A stretch of DNA of 63,109 nucleotides from Armatimonadota bacterium (lineage in GTDB: Bacteria > Armatimonadota > Hebobacteria > CAIYQO01). Where the stretch lies: the NCBI GenBank assembly GCA_029553475.1, contig JAKPKV010000038.1, positions 1 through 63,109 on the forward strand. Direction: 5' to 3'. Shown one piece after another: positions 48,940-55,615 of this stretch. Made by a program: the position numbers and the translations under genes. A model generated the notes under the pieces. It was not told the origin of the DNA, did no database searches, and was given only the letters and a program-made list of their open reading frames with translations. Within the stretch, counting starts at the first letter, position 1, and every line of letters starts with the position of its first letter.

Positions 48940-51000
48940 CTACCGCCAGGCCGCTGCCGCCGACAGCAGCGCGTCCAGCGTCATCGTCCAGCGCAGGAGG
49001 TAGTAGGCGCGCAGCAGGGCGGCGGCGGGAAGGGCCGGGTCGGCGTCGGCGCTGCCGCGGGCAGCATCCAGCGCCGTGAGCAGTGCTCCCAGCGCCTCCG
49101 CGCAGGCAGTCAGGCCGAGGGCGTGCAGCCGCGCGGCGTCGGCGCGGAGCGTATCGAGGCGGCGGGCGGCAAGGAGGCCGCTTTCCGCGAGGATTTCCAG
49201 CTCCGCCGCCAGCGCGGCAAGCAGGCGGCTGACGGCGGAATGCCCGCGATCATCCCCGGCATCGTCGCCGCTAAGCGGGGAACACGGGCGAGCGGCCGTT
49301 TGCGGAGGACACCGCGGCGCGTCCAGCGTCAGGTTGATCCGCGTCGTGCCGGCGTAAAGCGTGAACGGTTCGACGGTGATGGCCCCCGCGCGCAGCCGCA
49401 GCAGGCCGAGCAGGCGCGTGCCGGGGGTGGGGCGCCAGCCTTCCAGCGTGGCGATGGCGCCCTGGTATTCGGCGGTATAGGGGAGCACCAGGCACACCCC
49501 GCGATCGTCGGCATCGAAGACCGGGCGCACCAGCTCCTGGCGCACGTCGTCAAAGCTGGCGTCTTCCCAGCGCGCCGGCTGCAGCAGCACCAGCGCCCCC
49601 CGCTCGTCGCCGTCGCGAAAGCCGTCGCCGAACGCGGTCAGCGCGCGGTCGGTGAGGGCGCGCCAGTCGGTACTGATCGGCAGCCCGGCAGGCCAGCCGG
49701 CATCGCCGATGATCAGTGCCTGCGTGGCGGCGCGCCCGGACAGGCGGCCGATGGCGTTGCGCCAGGCCGGCATCAACCGCAGGCGGCTGCGGGCGGCCTC
49801 GCCGGGGCATGCGCAGCCCGGCCAGGGACCGTCCGCCAGGTAGCGGCGGGCTGGGTCGAACTGTTCGGCCTGCTCAGCCGGGCGCGCATCGCTCCAGGTG
49901 GCCCAGGCGTGGCTCACCGCGTCCCAGAAGTAGACGGTGAGGCCGACGTAGCCGCTGCGCGTGCGCCAGCGCCGCGCGCCCATGCCGGCCAACTCCAGCG
50001 TGCCGATGTCGTCATAGCGCGAGCGGTGTTCGCCGACCAGTCGCGCGGTAGGCCGGGCGGCCAGCGCCAGCCGCAGCGCCGCTGCCTGCGCCGCCGCTCC
50101 CAGCAGGTTGTGGGTATCGGCCGCCGCACTGCGCGCCAGCAGCAGGCGGGTTTCCTCCGCCAGCGTCTCCAGCAGGCGCTCCAGCCGCGGCAGGTCCACC
50201 CCGTGCGCGGAGACGGCCAGCGTCTGCATGCGCTCGACGGTGGCGTCCGCCGCGCACGAAAAGCCGTGGATGACCAGTTCGTGCAGCATGCCGCCCACCG
50301 CCGCCAGCACTTCCGCCCGCGTGCGTGGCGCGCCGGAAGCGGCTTCCAGCATCGCCGCAGCTTCGGCGACGATTGCGCGCCCGTGCCGGGCCTGTACGCC
50401 GAGTATCGCCAGTACGCGGTGCTCGCATGGCCCGGCGGCATGGCAGCCACAGAGCATGCCGTCGAACCCCGCGCCGGGGAACCAGCGGCAGGTGATCTGC
50501 AGCGCCGGGATGGCGATCGTCAGCGGTGCGCCGCCTTCAATGACGACCTCCAGGCCGTTGGCGAGCCGCCGCAGCGCCTTGCGAAAGAGCGGTTTACCGG
50601 CCCACTTCTGGAGGGTGGCGTCATCGAGGGCGAGGACTTCGGGCAGCGCGGAGGCGGGGGAACCCGCGGATGGAGAATCCGTGATCCCCGGTTCCGGCGC
50701 GACGGCGTCTCGCCCGCCAGAGCGCATGGCGAGGATGGCGACGAGGATATGCCGGCAGGCGCCGCCGGCGGGACAGGTGCAGGACGCGCGCTGGGGCGCG
50801 TCGGGCAGGGTGACGGTGGCGTCGCCCACCGCGAGCTGCAGGGTGTCGCCCGTCTCGCCGATCACCGTCACGGCGGTGGTGTCCAGATCTTTATAGGCGC
50901 GGCGCAGCAGCCCGCGGTTCGCCAGGGCTTCAAGCGCGGCGTCATCGAAGAGCGCCAGTTGGGCGCGTATGCGTGTCAGGAGAGGGCGTTGTCCATCCAT
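48940..51000 (-). CDS. Double SWIM zinc-finger protein of the MoxR-VWA-DUF5682 module
   Basis: 686 aa. Two zinc motifs of the form C-x-C-x5-C-x-H are exactly spaced in the N-terminal third: C74-C76-C82-H84 (SCTCPAGGACRH) and C184-C186-C192-H194 (CGCHAAGPCEH). SWIM domains bind DNA or protein. The rest is long, alanine/leucine-rich and includes WPGCACPGEAARSRLRLMPAW and a YLLRWTMTLDALL C-terminal helix; no enzyme motif is seen. The start at 51000 lies 25 bp inside the VWA gene, so translation is probably coupled. It is the last gene of a module MoxR - DUF5682 - VWA - SWIM. It may recognise a target for the AAA+/VWA machine. Confidence 0.85.
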   Translation of the reverse strand: MDGQRPLLTRIRAQLALFDDAALEALANRGLLRRAYKDLDTTAVTVIGETGDTLQLAVGDATVTLPDAPQRASCTCPAGGACRHILVAILAMRSGGRDAVAPEPGITDSPSAGSPASALPEVLALDDATLQKWAGKPLFRKALRRLANGLEVVIEGGAPLTIAIPALQITCRWFPGAGFDGMLCGCHAAGPCEHRVLAILGVQARHGRAIVAEAAAMLEAASGAPRTRAEVLAAVGGMLHELVIHGFSCAADATVERMQTLAVSAHGVDLPRLERLLETLAEETRLLLARSAAADTHNLLGAAAQAAALRLALAARPTARLVGEHRSRYDDIGTLELAGMGARRWRTRSGYVGLTVYFWDAVSHAWATWSDARPAEQAEQFDPARRYLADGPWPGCACPGEAARSRLRLMPAWRNAIGRLSGRAATQALIIGDAGWPAGLPISTDWRALTDRALTAFGDGFRDGDERGALVLLQPARWEDASFDDVRQELVRPVFDADDRGVCLVLPYTAEYQGAIATLEGWRPTPGTRLLGLLRLRAGAITVEPFTLYAGTTRINLTLDAPRCPPQTAARPCSPLSGDDAGDDRGHSAVSRLLAALAAELEILAESGLLAARRLDTLRADAARLHALGLTACAEALGALLTALDAARGSADADPALPAAALLRAYYLLRWTMTLDALLSAAAAWR

Positions 51001-52124
51001 TCGGCTAATCGCCGCGGCGTCAGGGCCGCGATCTCCGCGCCGGCGTCGGCGCAGCGCTGGGCAAGGGCGTGGTCGTAGACGGGGCGGGCGTCGGCGTCCA
51101 ACGCGGCGAGGCCGAGCACGCGCACGCCCGCCTCGCGATAATGCGTCACCATGCTGATCACGCCCTCGGGGGAATTCCCCTCGAAGAAATCGGTGATGAG
51201 GACGAGGATGGTGCGCGCCGGCGACTCCACCAACCCTTCGCAGTAGCGCAGCGCGTTGTAGATGTCCGTGCCGCCGCCGAGCTGCACGCTCATCAGCACC
51301 GCCAGCGGATCGTCTACCTGCGCGGTCATATCTACGATACTGGTATCGAAGGCGACCAGGCTCACGCGCACCGCGGGCAGCCCGTGGAAGATGCCGGCCA
51401 TCACCGCGCTGTGAATCACCGAGTCGAGCATGGAGCCGCTGCAATCCACGCACAGGATGATGTGCCAGGGGAGGTGTCGCTTCGTGCGCGAGGCGAAGAA
51501 GATCTGCTCCACCAGCAGGCGCCGGCGCTCGGGATCGTAGTGCTTCAGGTTGGCGCGGATGGTGCGCGGCACGTCCAGATTGGCGGCGGTCTGCTGCCGG
51601 CTGCGCTGGCGGCGATTCAGCCGGCCCCACAGCACCGGGCGCACTTCGCTCGCGAGCGTGCGGCTGAGTTCGTCCACCATCTGGCGGACGATGCGGCGGG
51701 CGACCTCCAGCGTCTCCGCCGGCATCAATTCGCGGAAGGTCAGGATCGCCTTCATCAGTTCGTAGCTGGGCTCCAATCGCTCCAGCACCCGCGGGTCGGT
51801 GACGAGCTCCGTCATGCCGTAGCGATGCAGCGCGTGCTGCTCCAGCGTTTCCATGGTCTCGCGCGGAAAGAGCGCGCGGGCTTCGCGTATCCACGCCGGC
51901 ACGGAGAGCATGCTGGCGTCCATCCCGCCCGTGCGCGCTTCGTCTTCGCGCACGCCGCGGTCGCCGTATTCGCGGCCGTAGAGGTATTGCAGCACGCGGT
52001 CCATCCGCGGGTAATCGTCGCCCATGCCCAGCGCGCCGGGCAGTTGCTGCTCGGCGAAGCGCCCCAGGATGAGGCGCCAGCGGGCAAGGGCGGTATTGGA
52101 GTCGTGGTGGTCTGTATGAGACAT
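50976..52124 (-). CDS. VWA domain protein with MIDAS motif
   Basis: 382 aa from ATG 52124; an in-frame ATG at 52232 gives 36 more residues overlapping the upstream gene, and neither has a strong ribosome binding site. The C-terminal VWA fold has a complete metal-ion-dependent adhesion site: DCSGS (227-231), the threonine in GGGTD (286) and aspartate in LITDFFEG (312). The N-terminal 190 residues are helical with a basic patch (WGRLNRRQRSRQQ). VWA proteins of this kind pair with MoxR AAA+ ATPases as substrate- or client-binding partners. Overlaps the SWIM gene by 25 bp and follows DUF5682 after 58 bp. Confidence 0.9.
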   Translation of the reverse strand: MSHTDHHDSNTALARWRLILGRFAEQQLPGALGMGDDYPRMDRVLQYLYGREYGDRGVREDEARTGGMDASMLSVPAWIREARALFPRETMETLEQHALHRYGMTELVTDPRVLERLEPSYELMKAILTFRELMPAETLEVARRIVRQMVDELSRTLASEVRPVLWGRLNRRQRSRQQTAANLDVPRTIRANLKHYDPERRRLLVEQIFFASRTKRHLPWHIILCVDCSGSMLDSVIHSAVMAGIFHGLPAVRVSLVAFDTSIVDMTAQVDDPLAVLMSVQLGGGTDIYNALRYCEGLVESPARTILVLITDFFEGNSPEGVISMVTHYREAGVRVLGLAALDADARPVYDHALAQRCADAGAEIAALTPRRLAEWMDNALS

Positions 52125-52182
52125 ATATTTACCGCGGAGGAGATGATTTCCCGTCGGGGTTTGATAGTCTGTGTGTTCCTCA

Positions 52183-54567
52183 TTATGAGGCAGTCGCGGG
52201 GTCTCCTTTCGTGAGGAGTAGTTCCAAACCATCCGCCAGCAGTGCTTCCCGCACGCGGCGGTTCACCTCCGCGGCGTGCAGGAGGTCATCGCTGCTGAAT
52301 TCGCGGGTGTGCGGCAGCGGCAGCGCCGCCACGCCATGCTGGCGCGCGACCACGGCGGCGACGCGGTCCGTCTCGCGCGGGGTGAGCGTGCTGAACGCGA
52401 GGCGGAGGGTGGGGAGCTGGGTGAGGAAGCGCGCCTCATCCCAATCCGCCAGCACGCCGGTCAGCGCCGCGCAGAGCTCCGGCTCCTGCCAGAGCACGCC
52501 GCGGGCGGTCCGCAGCAGGCCGCGCAGGAAAGCCGGGCCGGATCCGCCGTCGTCCTTCACGCTGTGCAGGAAGCCGGTGAAACGCCGGGTGAGCGCATCC
52601 AGCGGCATCCGCCCGTCATCCACCAACAGGCCGGTGGCGGCGCCGATGACGGCGGCATTGCCATCGGCGGCATCGGCCAGCTCACGCAGGCGGTCCCAGA
52701 GCATCGCCCGGTGCGCGGGCCGGTTGCCGAACGGCGCGGGCATCTGCGACAGGCTGTTCAGCGCGTCCAGCACCGCGTCCTCCGCCTCCCCCGCGGTGGC
52801 GACCAATGCCGGCAGCAGGTAGCAGGCGCGCTGAAAGGCCCGCAGCGCCAGCTCGGCGACATCGGTGAGCCGGTGCGCTTCCAGCGGCTCACGGGAGAGG
52901 TGGAGCATCAGCAGGTCGGCGGCGGCGCGCACCAGCGAGGGGAAGTCGGCATCCGCGGCAATCAGCGCGCCGGTGCGGTCGAGCAGCGCCTGGCTCTGGC
53001 GGTGCAGGCCCATGCGGCAGGATTCCACCACCAGCGCGGTGCCGAGCCGCGCGCGCCCGCCCTGTCCGGCGGCCTCCGCCTCGGCGAAGCGCTCCTGCAG
53101 CATGGCGGCGGCCGCTTCCTCCAACGAGGCCCCGTACATCGCGCGTTCGATGAGGGTGGCGTCCGTCATCGGCGACCAACAATACTGCCAGACCTCCTGC
53201 ACGCGGTCGAGGTGTGTTCCGGCCACGAAATCCGGCCCGCGCTGCAGGGTGGCGAACGGGACGTCGAGGAAGCGCAGGCGATAGAGCAGGCGGCTGGCGG
53301 CGCGGTGGCCGGCGCTGCGGTAGAGGTCGAGGGTGAGGGTGCGCGTCTCGCCGCCGTCGAGGGCCAGCTTCAGGCCGGCGGCGGCGGAGCGGAAGTCATG
53401 GACGATGGGCGGCTGGCCGGCATCCTTCGGCACCTCGCCGACCCGCGCGCCGGCGAGCAGCGCGCGGGCGAGGGTGAGCACGGCCACGCCCTCGATATCG
53501 GCCGCGCCCTTGATAAAACTGGCGCGGATGCCGTCCAGCAGGTCTTCGCGGGTGGGGCCGCGGTGCCCGCGCAGGCGCGCCAGCCGCTCGGTCTGCGCCA
53601 GCGCCTGAATCTCGTCATCCGTGGAGGAATCGCCCTTCTGCCTGCGCAGTCGTTGGCCGAGCTCGACGAGAATCGGCGCCATCGGCTGTCCTTCCCAGCA
53701 CCGCTGGTAGAACTCCGGCGAGGGCATGCCGCTGCCGTAACCGTTCAGGCGGTCAAGCTGCTCGAAGCTGTAGCGGGTCAGCACCACCTGGGCATCGCCG
53801 GGCGCCACGTCCACCGCTTTCGGCACGTCCGGCGCGGTGTCCCGCAGGGCGACGGTGTGAAAGCCGCCGGTGACCACCACCACGCGCCCCGTCTCCCGCG
53901 CGATTTCCGCGGCCATCCCGGCTTCGCGAGCAACGTTCCCCTCGGCGCGCAGCATGTCGTCGGTATAGTCCTCGCGCGCCAGCGCGCAGTAGGCCAGCAC
54001 GTTGCGGAAGAAGGCGGCGGCGTCCAGTTCCTGGTAGCCGTCCTCGTACAGGTGGTCCCACAGGTCGTCGGGGTCGCGGGCGCCGGCGCGCTGGCAGGCG
54101 GCGGCGAGGAAGCGGCTGTGGGTGAAGTAACGCTCCTCGAGCAGGCTGGCGACCCTCCCTTCGGGCCGCTCACCGTGCGCTACCTGCTCCGGATACGTCA
54201 GGTCAATAAACTTCGCGGGGATCTCGAGCGCGGCGGCGGCGCGGATGGCCGCCAGCTCCGGCGAGAAATCGCAGAACGGGTAGTAGGCGGCGTAGTGCGC
54301 CGGCTGCGCGCCGCGGGCGCGCGCGATGTAGGTGGTGAAGATCGCCACCGGCATGCGCGTTTCAGGGTGGATGAGCAGCGGGATGAGCGGCGTCGCGTCG
54401 CGCGGACCCTCGATGAGCACGGCGTCGGGCCGCAGGTGGCGGATGAGTCGGTCCACGTGCCAGGCGCAGGCGGGGCTATGGTGGCGAATGGGCAGGTAGA
54501 CGACGCGGGCATCGAGGTCCAGCGCGGCTAGGCCAGCCACTTGCGGGCTTTCAGGAAGTCCGTCCAT
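52183..54567 (-). CDS. DUF5682 family protein
   Basis: 794 aa. DUF5682 has no assigned biochemistry. N-terminal residues 1-240 carry conserved-looking polar motifs: PIRHHSPACA (H29, H30), LIEGPRD (E53), a REAGMAAEI segment near 214-222, and VVTGGFH (H237). This set and order recall the TIKI/TraB/EreA/ChaN superfamily, where His and Glu residues line the active site; that link is my inference. Residues 300-794 are alpha-helical and rich in Ala/Leu, including a GMPSPEFYQRCWEG block and the 90-residue C-terminal region. The start at 54567 overlaps the moxR end by 40 bp, with AAGGGGG upstream. The gene is the largest of the module and likely gives it its specific activity. Confidence 0.88.
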   Translation of the reverse strand: MDGLPESPQVAGLAALDLDARVVYLPIRHHSPACAWHVDRLIRHLRPDAVLIEGPRDATPLIPLLIHPETRMPVAIFTTYIARARGAQPAHYAAYYPFCDFSPELAAIRAAAALEIPAKFIDLTYPEQVAHGERPEGRVASLLEERYFTHSRFLAAACQRAGARDPDDLWDHLYEDGYQELDAAAFFRNVLAYCALAREDYTDDMLRAEGNVAREAGMAAEIARETGRVVVVTGGFHTVALRDTAPDVPKAVDVAPGDAQVVLTRYSFEQLDRLNGYGSGMPSPEFYQRCWEGQPMAPILVELGQRLRRQKGDSSTDDEIQALAQTERLARLRGHRGPTREDLLDGIRASFIKGAADIEGVAVLTLARALLAGARVGEVPKDAGQPPIVHDFRSAAAGLKLALDGGETRTLTLDLYRSAGHRAASRLLYRLRFLDVPFATLQRGPDFVAGTHLDRVQEVWQYCWSPMTDATLIERAMYGASLEEAAAAMLQERFAEAEAAGQGGRARLGTALVVESCRMGLHRQSQALLDRTGALIAADADFPSLVRAAADLLMLHLSREPLEAHRLTDVAELALRAFQRACYLLPALVATAGEAEDAVLDALNSLSQMPAPFGNRPAHRAMLWDRLRELADAADGNAAVIGAATGLLVDDGRMPLDALTRRFTGFLHSVKDDGGSGPAFLRGLLRTARGVLWQEPELCAALTGVLADWDEARFLTQLPTLRLAFSTLTPRETDRVAAVVARQHGVAALPLPHTREFSSDDLLHAAEVNRRVREALLADGLELLLTKGDPATAS

Positions 54568-55615
54568 ATGCCCCCTTTGCTCTTGCTCCGCTGGGTCACC
54601 ACGATATCGAAATAATGCTTCAGCTTCTTCTCCTCGCCCTGGGCGTCTTTGGTCATCGCCGTGGCCAGGTGCCGGCAGATGAACTCCGGCGTCAGCATGC
54701 CCGTGCCGAAGTAATGGCAGTCGAGGCCGGCGGAAAGGGCGACGGAGACCGCCTCCGCGGTGGACATCACCGCGGCCGCCTTCTCGAGTTGAATGCCTTC
54801 CGCCGTGACGCCCTCGCGCAGATCGTGGAAGGCGGTGACGAGCAGCTCCACGACCGGCCGCTCCACCGTCACCGGAGCGGCGGCCTCCGCCAGCAGGCGC
54901 GCGCACTCCTGCTGCACCAGCGCGATCTCCAGGTTGATATCGCGGATGGGCGATACCGTTTCGAAGTTGAAGCGGCGCTTCAAAGCGCTGGACATTTCAT
55001 GCACCCCGCGGTCGCGGGTGTTGGCGGTGGCGATGACGTTGAAGCCGGGCGTTGCCAGCAGCACGCGGTCGTCGCCGGGCAGCTCCGGCACGATGAGCAT
55101 CTTCTCGGAGAGGATGCCGATGAGGGCGTCCTGAATCTCCGGCGCGCAGCGGGTGATCTCCTCAAAACGCACCAGCACGCCGTCACGCATGCCGGTGTAG
55201 ATGGCCGACGGCACCAGCGCGCGCGGCGTCGGCCCTTCGCCAGCAGCAGCGCGTAGTTCCAGGAATACTTCACCTGGTCCTCGCTCACGCCGGCGCTGCC
55301 CTGGATGGTGTGCGTGGAATTGCCGCTGATGGCGGCGGCCAGCAGTTCGGAGAGCATGGATTTCGCCGTGCCCGGCTCGCCCACCAGCAGCAGCCCGCGC
55401 GTCCCCGCCAGGCTCACGATGGCGCGCTCCACCAGCGTGTCGTCCCCGTAGAATTTTCGCGCGATCCCCCGTTTCGCGTCCCCGCAGACGAAAGCCTTCA
55501 CCGCCAGCGGCGACAACCGCCACCCCGGCGGCTTCGGCCCACCGTCAGTCCGCGCGAGGGTCGCCAATTCGTCCGCGTACGCCAGCTCGGCCGGCGGGCG
55601 AAGCATGGTCGCCAT
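54528..55615 (-). CDS. MoxR-family AAA+ ATPase, interrupted by a one-base frameshift
   Basis: The protein is split over two minus-strand frames. The first frame (from ATG 55615, GGAGG upstream) gives the N-terminus with Walker A GEPGTAKS (79-86) and runs to ALLLAKG near 55232. The second frame continues with [12 protein letters not shown], the Walker B-like [10 protein letters not shown], sensor 1 [12 protein letters not shown] and arginine finger SALKRRF. Inserting one C in the GGCC run at 55231-55235 would restore a single 362-aa protein of the expected length. It may be an assembly error, a real lesion or a recoded shift. MoxR ATPases drive remodelling of client proteins with VWA partners, and this gene heads the module. 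Overlaps DUF5682 by 40 bp. Confidence 0.88.

Follow-up and report, generated by a model that had tools for sequence, protein, structure and literature searches.

A probable TIKI-superfamily domain at the N-terminus of DUF5682 (YehM-family) proteins encoded beside MoxR and VWA genes

The stretch of DNA analysed here, referred to as the window, comprises positions 1 to 63,109 of contig JAKPKV010000038.1 (assembly GCA_029553475.1) from an Armatimonadota bacterium. It carries on its minus strand a gene for a DUF5682 (YehM-family) protein of 794 amino acids (52183..54567; Pfam PF18934, E 1.6e-111, 374 bits), with the start methionine at 54567 and the reading running down to 52183. The N-terminal ~275 residues of this protein are probably a divergent domain of the TIKI superfamily, for which the TraB/Tiki type is the best fit, and the residues retained across DUF5682 appear from the alignments to be those expected for an active site. 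An earlier sequence-only reading had described this N-terminus as TIKI/TraB/EreA/ChaN-like, and the idea is supported by structural matches, by conservation and by profile similarities that are weak and lie above the controls. That DUF5682 is an enzyme rather than a mere scaffold is strongly suggested, and the observations as a whole are very likely explained by a TIKI hydrolase domain joined to an AAA+ lid-like domain and a helical tail, working with a MoxR ATPase and a VWA protein. The TIKI superfamily is known, whereas the place of the DUF5682 family in it, the lid-like domain and the AAA+ partnership are new.

Fold and conserved residues of the N-terminal domain

An AlphaFold2 model of residues 1-350, built from 58 sequences, reached a predicted local distance difference test (pLDDT) value of 91.0 and a predicted template modelling score (pTM) of 0.90. 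Together with structural matches and profile comparisons, it delimits a TIKI-superfamily alpha/beta domain at about residues 8-275 (53743..54546). The four motifs singled out by the sequence-only reading are indeed found in it, at residues 28-32 (RHHSP, 54472..54486), 51-55 (LIEGP, 54403..54417), 214-218 (REAGM, 53914..53928) and 234-237 (GGFH, 53857..53868). The first, third and last of these are read here as the first His motif, a conserved Arg (the candidate TIKI-protease basic residue) with a Met, and a second GX2H motif; E53 of the second is the candidate catalytic Glu. The assignments draw on position, conservation and the model, except that of R214 and M218, for which conservation and profile alignment were used. 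In the model, H29 and H30 come directly after strand 22-27, E53 lies towards the end of strand 49-55, R214 on helix 211-223, and H237 at the start of helix 235-241, which follows strand 229-234. A further residue, D122 (54202..54204), closes strand 118-122 and is marked by its invariance, by the model and by the ChaN profile alignment described below. The motif residues are placed at the C-terminal ends of the strands, with R214 on the helix preceding the last motif strand; in an alpha/beta fold they would gather at one end of the sheet.

The rows listed by the VIA structural comparison form two groups, one over the N-terminal domain and one over residues 295-350 (AAA+ ATPases), and, to judge by the titles, each listed row over the N-terminal domain belongs to the TIKI superfamily. 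The best matches are Tetrahymena complex IV chains (Z 10.4-10.6; for 8b6h_DQ, Z 10.6, root-mean-square deviation (rmsd) 4.4, 194 residues aligned) and ChaN (2g5g; Z 8.5, rmsd 6.2, 171 aligned), and these alone stand above a Z of 8, below which a match may reflect a common arrangement only. They are followed by HopBA1 (5t09; Z 7.6, rmsd 4.4, 150 aligned), two chains titled 'bacterial protein toxins' (Z 6.0-6.2; for 6a7h_C, Z 6.2, rmsd 4.8, 144 aligned), BcR135 entries (Z 5.8-6.0; for 3b55, Z 5.9, rmsd 5.5, 164 aligned), PMT (2ec5_A; Z 5.9, rmsd 5.7, 143 aligned) and the erythromycin esterase EreC (6xcq; Z 5.6, rmsd 6.1, 166 aligned). Judged by their residue numbers, these two toxin chains would be RRSP, and ChaN, HopBA1, BcR135 and PMT have been described as TIKI relatives of RRSP (PMC6254334). 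Tetrahymena complex IV includes a TraB-family protein according to a figure legend (PMC10060162), and chains 8b6h_DQ, 8bqs_DQ and 7w5z_E are probably this subunit, an identification made from the legend of the whole complex and not chain by chain. The best Protein Data Bank chain in Foldseek was likewise 7w5z_E (E 9.2e-4), and among viral models a TraB family protein came first (E 1.4e-3, the next row at 0.69). A match to the TIKI fold, a parallel beta-sheet core with helices on its flanks, was thus obtained by structure, as foreseen from the motifs. With the window protein as query, a sequence search of solved structures returned nothing up to E 10, and the DUF5682 alignment returned just two chance matches, both helical fusion proteins.

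Conservation was followed across DUF5682 proteins from 35 of 291 genomes of the window's phylum, 19 of 246 genomes of the phylum of a Gordonia genome, a genome-contig scan (5 loci), plasmid-collection records (24, of which 12 were fetched) and E. coli K-12. The 82 open reading frames found were reduced to 77 rows by removal of duplicates (L006, L042, L043) and of two fragments lacking the N-terminus (L005 and the second L018 piece); these rows stand for 75 distinct genes, as L004/L008 and L059/L068 are each two windows on one gene. H29, E53, R214, M218, G234 and H237 are invariant (77/77), and H30 is kept in 76 rows, with Phe in one Fusobacterium protein, so that the His and Glu residues named by the sequence-only reading do not vary apart from this one case. 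Sixteen columns are without variation (R28, H29, P32, E53, P73, A75, P97, S102, E104, D122, W170, E175, R214, M218, G234 and H237). In a 71-member alignment with pairwise identity below 85%, 16 columns of 350 residues are invariant, again including these six motif residues, with H30 nearly so; with so few invariant columns and the motif residues among them, the motifs are not due to chance. Additionally, four divergent actinobacterial paralogues that the first search had missed keep H29, H30, E53, R214, M218, G234 and H237 in all four, and have Cys in place of R28 in all four.

RHG is the motif of histidine phosphatases and stands at the end of their strand 1. The RHH of DUF5682 is also located at the end of strand 1, and Foldseek listed a small number of histidine phosphatases with E of about 1 or above, so the domain was also considered as a histidine phosphatase with RHH for RHG. 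Such an identity is highly improbable, since R28 is Cys in each of the four divergent paralogues and the TIKI structural matches are far higher. In a rough profile comparison with 30 open frames of His_Phos_1 (PF00300), for which the frame chosen looks doubtful in two of four inspected, P was 0.14, no better than decoys, and this candidate was rejected.

Placement in the TIKI superfamily

GX2H is the canonical first His motif of the TIKI superfamily. Its position in DUF5682 is probably filled by H29 and not by H30, because the ChaN profile alignment sets G-V-R-H29 opposite G-E-E-H (and D122 opposite ChaN N-x-P) and because H30 is Phe in the Fusobacterium homologue, although the weaker Ere alignment favours H30. 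The sequence-only reading had counted H29-H30 together towards the active site: the conservation of His and Glu in superfamily order stands, but H29 is the likelier of the two at GX2H.

The profile of the DUF5682 N-terminus was compared with those of 22 gene clusters built from fetched loci, among which ChaN ranked first (P 2.1e-4) and the erythromycin esterases (Ere) second. A profile of six DUF5694 proteins gave P 8.9e-5 with a colinear match along the whole domain. The best of 25 reversed profiles used as a control had P 0.036, and the yardstick pair ChaN-Ere gave P 2.3e-6 at the same setting. The identity of the ChaN cluster was checked with one of its proteins (L086), which hit the Pfam model of ChaN with E 1.1e-64 and 2g5g with E 0.008. 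The Ere profile was that of whole open frames, with H30, E53, R214 and H237 in register on the Ere His, Glu, Arg and His, and R214 on RD..M; profiles of trimmed regions were weaker, with P 0.05 on one short stretch and P 0.2 out of register. TraB proteins were too few for a profile (one of 61 genomes, below cut-off, and two of 246 actinobacterial genomes). In Pfam, the window protein has a sub-threshold ChaN match at residues 202-238 (E 0.16 with the full protein as query, E 0.029 with residues 1-350), the stretch that contains exactly the R-E-A-G-M and GGFH motifs, and TraB (PF01963) was not listed for it at E up to 1. Across the 71 members, the commonest non-self families were TraB and ChaN (6 each), with TraB matches at E up to 10, the best at 0.011 and below the gathering score. 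The sequence signals are recognisable yet weak, and the case is carried by structure and conservation. Position 1 of the PF18934 model aligns with residue 38 of the protein. The RHH motif therefore precedes the modelled part, and this may explain why the TIKI kinship went unnoticed.

TraB/PrgY/gumN and Tiki proteins (PF01963) have the same order of GX2H, Glu, Arg and GX2H and no acid at the second position of GX2H, and among solved structures the best match is a probable TraB-family chain from Tetrahymena complex IV. The E. coli TraB protein YbaP likewise shows GSIH, VEAD, RN and GALH in this order and also lacks the first Glu. DUF5682 differs from TraB/Tiki in that it scores below the Pfam cut-off, continues through a lid-like domain into a helical repeat, and is encoded with MoxR and VWA proteins. 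DUF5694 (PF18950), with its colinear profile match, has motifs of the GTYH, LEWP, RN and GSGH type, but consists of short stand-alone open frames of 253-305 residues with neither lid nor repeat. One of five scanned DUF5694 proteins (from L164-L169) aligns with TraB along its length (E 3.4e-4), and from their sequences these proteins look like a further TIKI-superfamily family. ChaN (PF04187) is close both in profile and in solved structure, but it binds haem and follows its first Gly with Glu (GExH), where DUF5682 has Ile or Val. The erythromycin esterases, with BcR135 and EreC (PF05139), share the fold (Z 5.6-6.0) and hold His, Glu, Arg and His in register, but the profile is weak and DUF5682 is without the Glu of their GE-x-[ST]-H motif. 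RRSP, whose cleavage activity requires two His, two Glu and a nearby Arg (Arg-4001) (PMC6254334), is matched by DUF5682 in both His, one Glu and the Arg, with the first Glu replaced by Ile/Val. As the first acidic residue of Ere, ChaN and RRSP is absent here, as it is in YbaP, DUF5682 is placed nearest to TraB and outside Ere/RRSP/ChaN. The match to the logic of the superfamily that the sequence-only reading had seen therefore holds for His, Glu, Arg and His, but does not extend to this residue.

Several observations weigh against a TIKI hydrolase. At residue 27, where the 2His/2Glu motif has its first Glu, 39 of the 77 rows have Ile and 38 have Val, and the first GX2H reads PIRH in the window protein, with Gly in 61/77 and Pro in 16/77 (window protein included). 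The Ere profile itself reached a P of just 0.08, the hhalign probability for ChaN and DUF5694 was 46-60%, and no TIKI model of Pfam was matched at cut-off (ChaN 14.8 bits over residues 200-238, against 27.7). TM-scores in the Foldseek search that found 7w5z_E were low (0.35/0.32), and the arrangement of the site was read from secondary-structure positions of the model. Additionally, ChaN binds haem and PMT is without the catalytic motif, so some members of the superfamily have not been shown to be hydrolases. The fold might accordingly bind a ligand (haem, metal or peptide) without hydrolysis, and DUF5682 would then be a sensor or a cofactor carrier for a MoxR/VWA insertion machine. This is consistent with the missing first Glu, with the presence of the haem protein ChaN among the best solved matches (Z 8.5, profile P 2.1e-4) and with the service of NorQ/NorD-type MoxR/VWA pairs in metal insertion (PMC9976466). 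We consider it unlikely, as the His-Glu-Arg-His set is invariant and its counterparts are needed for catalysis by RRSP (PMC6254334).

The remainder of the protein and the gene neighbourhood

Downstream of the putative hydrolase domain, residues 295-350 (53518..53685) are likely an AAA+ lid-like helical domain, a suggestive assignment from structural rows, Pfam and profiles. Over 48-56 residues this region matches the lids of MCM, RuvBL, ORC and proteasomal ATPases at an rmsd of about 2 (Z 5.1-6.9), and the commonest non-self Pfam family in it is AAA_lid_2 (PF17863 type; 6 of 58 members, best E 0.0077). In profile comparison it comes closest to the lid of the MoxR proteins encoded alongside (P 0.0049, or 0.0067 with another alignment; best reversed decoy 0.047). 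Pairwise comparison of the region with the MoxR lid of the same locus mostly gave no signal (z >3 in 4 of 53 pairs, median z 0.44), and the best-matching DUF5682 segments were scattered over the whole protein, which leaves structure and profiles as the basis for proposing a lid. The C-terminal residues 466-780 (52228..53172) form an all-helical repeat (HEAT/ARM-like), as seen from modelled secondary structure and from helical-repeat structural rows with Z of 8.2 or less. With a C-terminal half that is mostly helical repeat and a lid-like domain present, DUF5682 might be a scaffold or adaptor alone for MoxR and VWA, its N-terminal motifs being structural. This is improbable, since a structural role does not readily account for invariant polar residues where the strands of an enzyme fold end.

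The genes around DUF5682 are on the same strand. Upstream lies a MoxR (YehL-like) AAA+ ATPase gene (54528..55615, minus strand), split by a frameshift near 55235, for which tblastn gave two overlapping pieces to YehL in two frames and Pfam AAA_5 on both halves; it is one open frame in relatives (L010, L011), and the split is either an assembly error or a real lesion. Downstream are a gene for a VWA (CoxE-like, YehP-like) protein with an intact DxSxS in translation (50976..52232, minus strand; PF05762, E 1.8e-54) and an open reading frame with a SWIM zinc-finger protein (YehQ-like; 48940..51894, minus strand; PF04434, E 0.0018, 18.2 bits where the cut-off is 19.6, and tblastn to YehQ), whose real start is probably near 50979. 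Of 76 loci, mostly with short flanks (L005, L006, L042, L043 and L068 excluded, L004/L008 counted as two), 74 have a YehL-like MoxR gene on the same strand as DUF5682 and 63 have a VWA gene.

Some further loci bear on the distribution of the family. In a Singulisphaera genome (L010, L041) DUF5682 occurs twice, as a canonical gene (983 bits) and as one close to that of the window (57% identical, 368 bits), and this second copy places the window protein in a divergent DUF5682 subfamily that Gordonia shares. In E. coli, a conjugative IncF plasmid of 181 kb (NZ_CP103756.1, 109380-126747) carries a segment from yehI to mlrA in the order of the K-12 chromosome. Six other plasmid loci (L076, L077, L078, L079, L080 and L081) have DUF4132 or DUF5691 genes beside MoxR-DUF5682, and these neighbours may point to a MoxR-DUF5682 module with further parts. 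The window protein is matched by the viral family PHROG 30700, of unknown function, over residues 25-537 (E 1.6e-50), and the DUF5682 protein had no match in NCBIfam, in PADLOC or, by tblastn, in phage records. DUF5682 is not named in the literature searched, which was limited to one paper collection; three of its papers mention DUF4132 or DUF5691, and in each of the two retrieved for yeh genes yehM appears a single time, in a deletion list.

A possible mechanism and comparison with known systems

The fold match, the conservation and the gene neighbourhood come from computation, and catalysis, its chemistry (peptidase or esterase) and a physical contact with MoxR are inferred. On the model of Ere and RRSP, water would be activated by the His-Glu pair, with the Arg holding the substrate. 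MoxR and the VWA protein may bind, present or remodel a target, in which DUF5682 would then hydrolyse a peptide or ester bond; use of the lid-like domain as a dock for MoxR is a guess. More tentatively, YehLMPQ-type operons may add another class to the MoxR-vWA ternary systems, one in which the AAA+ ring would control a TIKI hydrolase docked via its own AAA+ lid, giving an ATP-gated protease or esterase that acts on a VWA-held target.

The prediction offers a first testable function, with mutable residues named, for a family that occurs in several phyla and has YehM as its member in E. coli K-12. Should the enzyme prove real, the YehL subfamily of MoxR would be tied to a hydrolase, beyond chaperoning or metal insertion, and the question would arise of how MoxR ATPases control an enzyme. 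Additionally, with its missing first Glu, DUF5682 provides a test of which TIKI residues the chemistry needs.

The closest known arrangement is that of E. coli yehLMPQ, which has the identical gene order MoxR-DUF5682-VWA-SWIM; YehL is a named MoxR subfamily (PMC3893208), and YehM is the E. coli member of DUF5682, with no difference in kind. In NorQ/NorD, the MoxR ring carries the VWA protein in its pore and remodels a target (PMC9976466). In the ternary conflict systems of MoxR and vWA, the third protein often has a peptidase domain (eLife 2020, PMC7159879); the words TIKI, TraB, EreA and SWIM do not occur in the main text of that paper. No VMAP model was found among the Pfam matches of the DUF5682 window protein, and no profile comparison was made. 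The VMAP ternary systems resemble the present module in combining MoxR and vWA with a third protein that bears an enzyme, often a peptidase, at its N-terminus (PMC7159879), and differ from it in that DUF5682, with its probable TIKI domain, takes the place of the third protein here. The proposed ATP-gated YehLMPQ module would follow a logic comparable to that of VMAP systems in which a trypsin- or caspase-like domain is part of the third protein.
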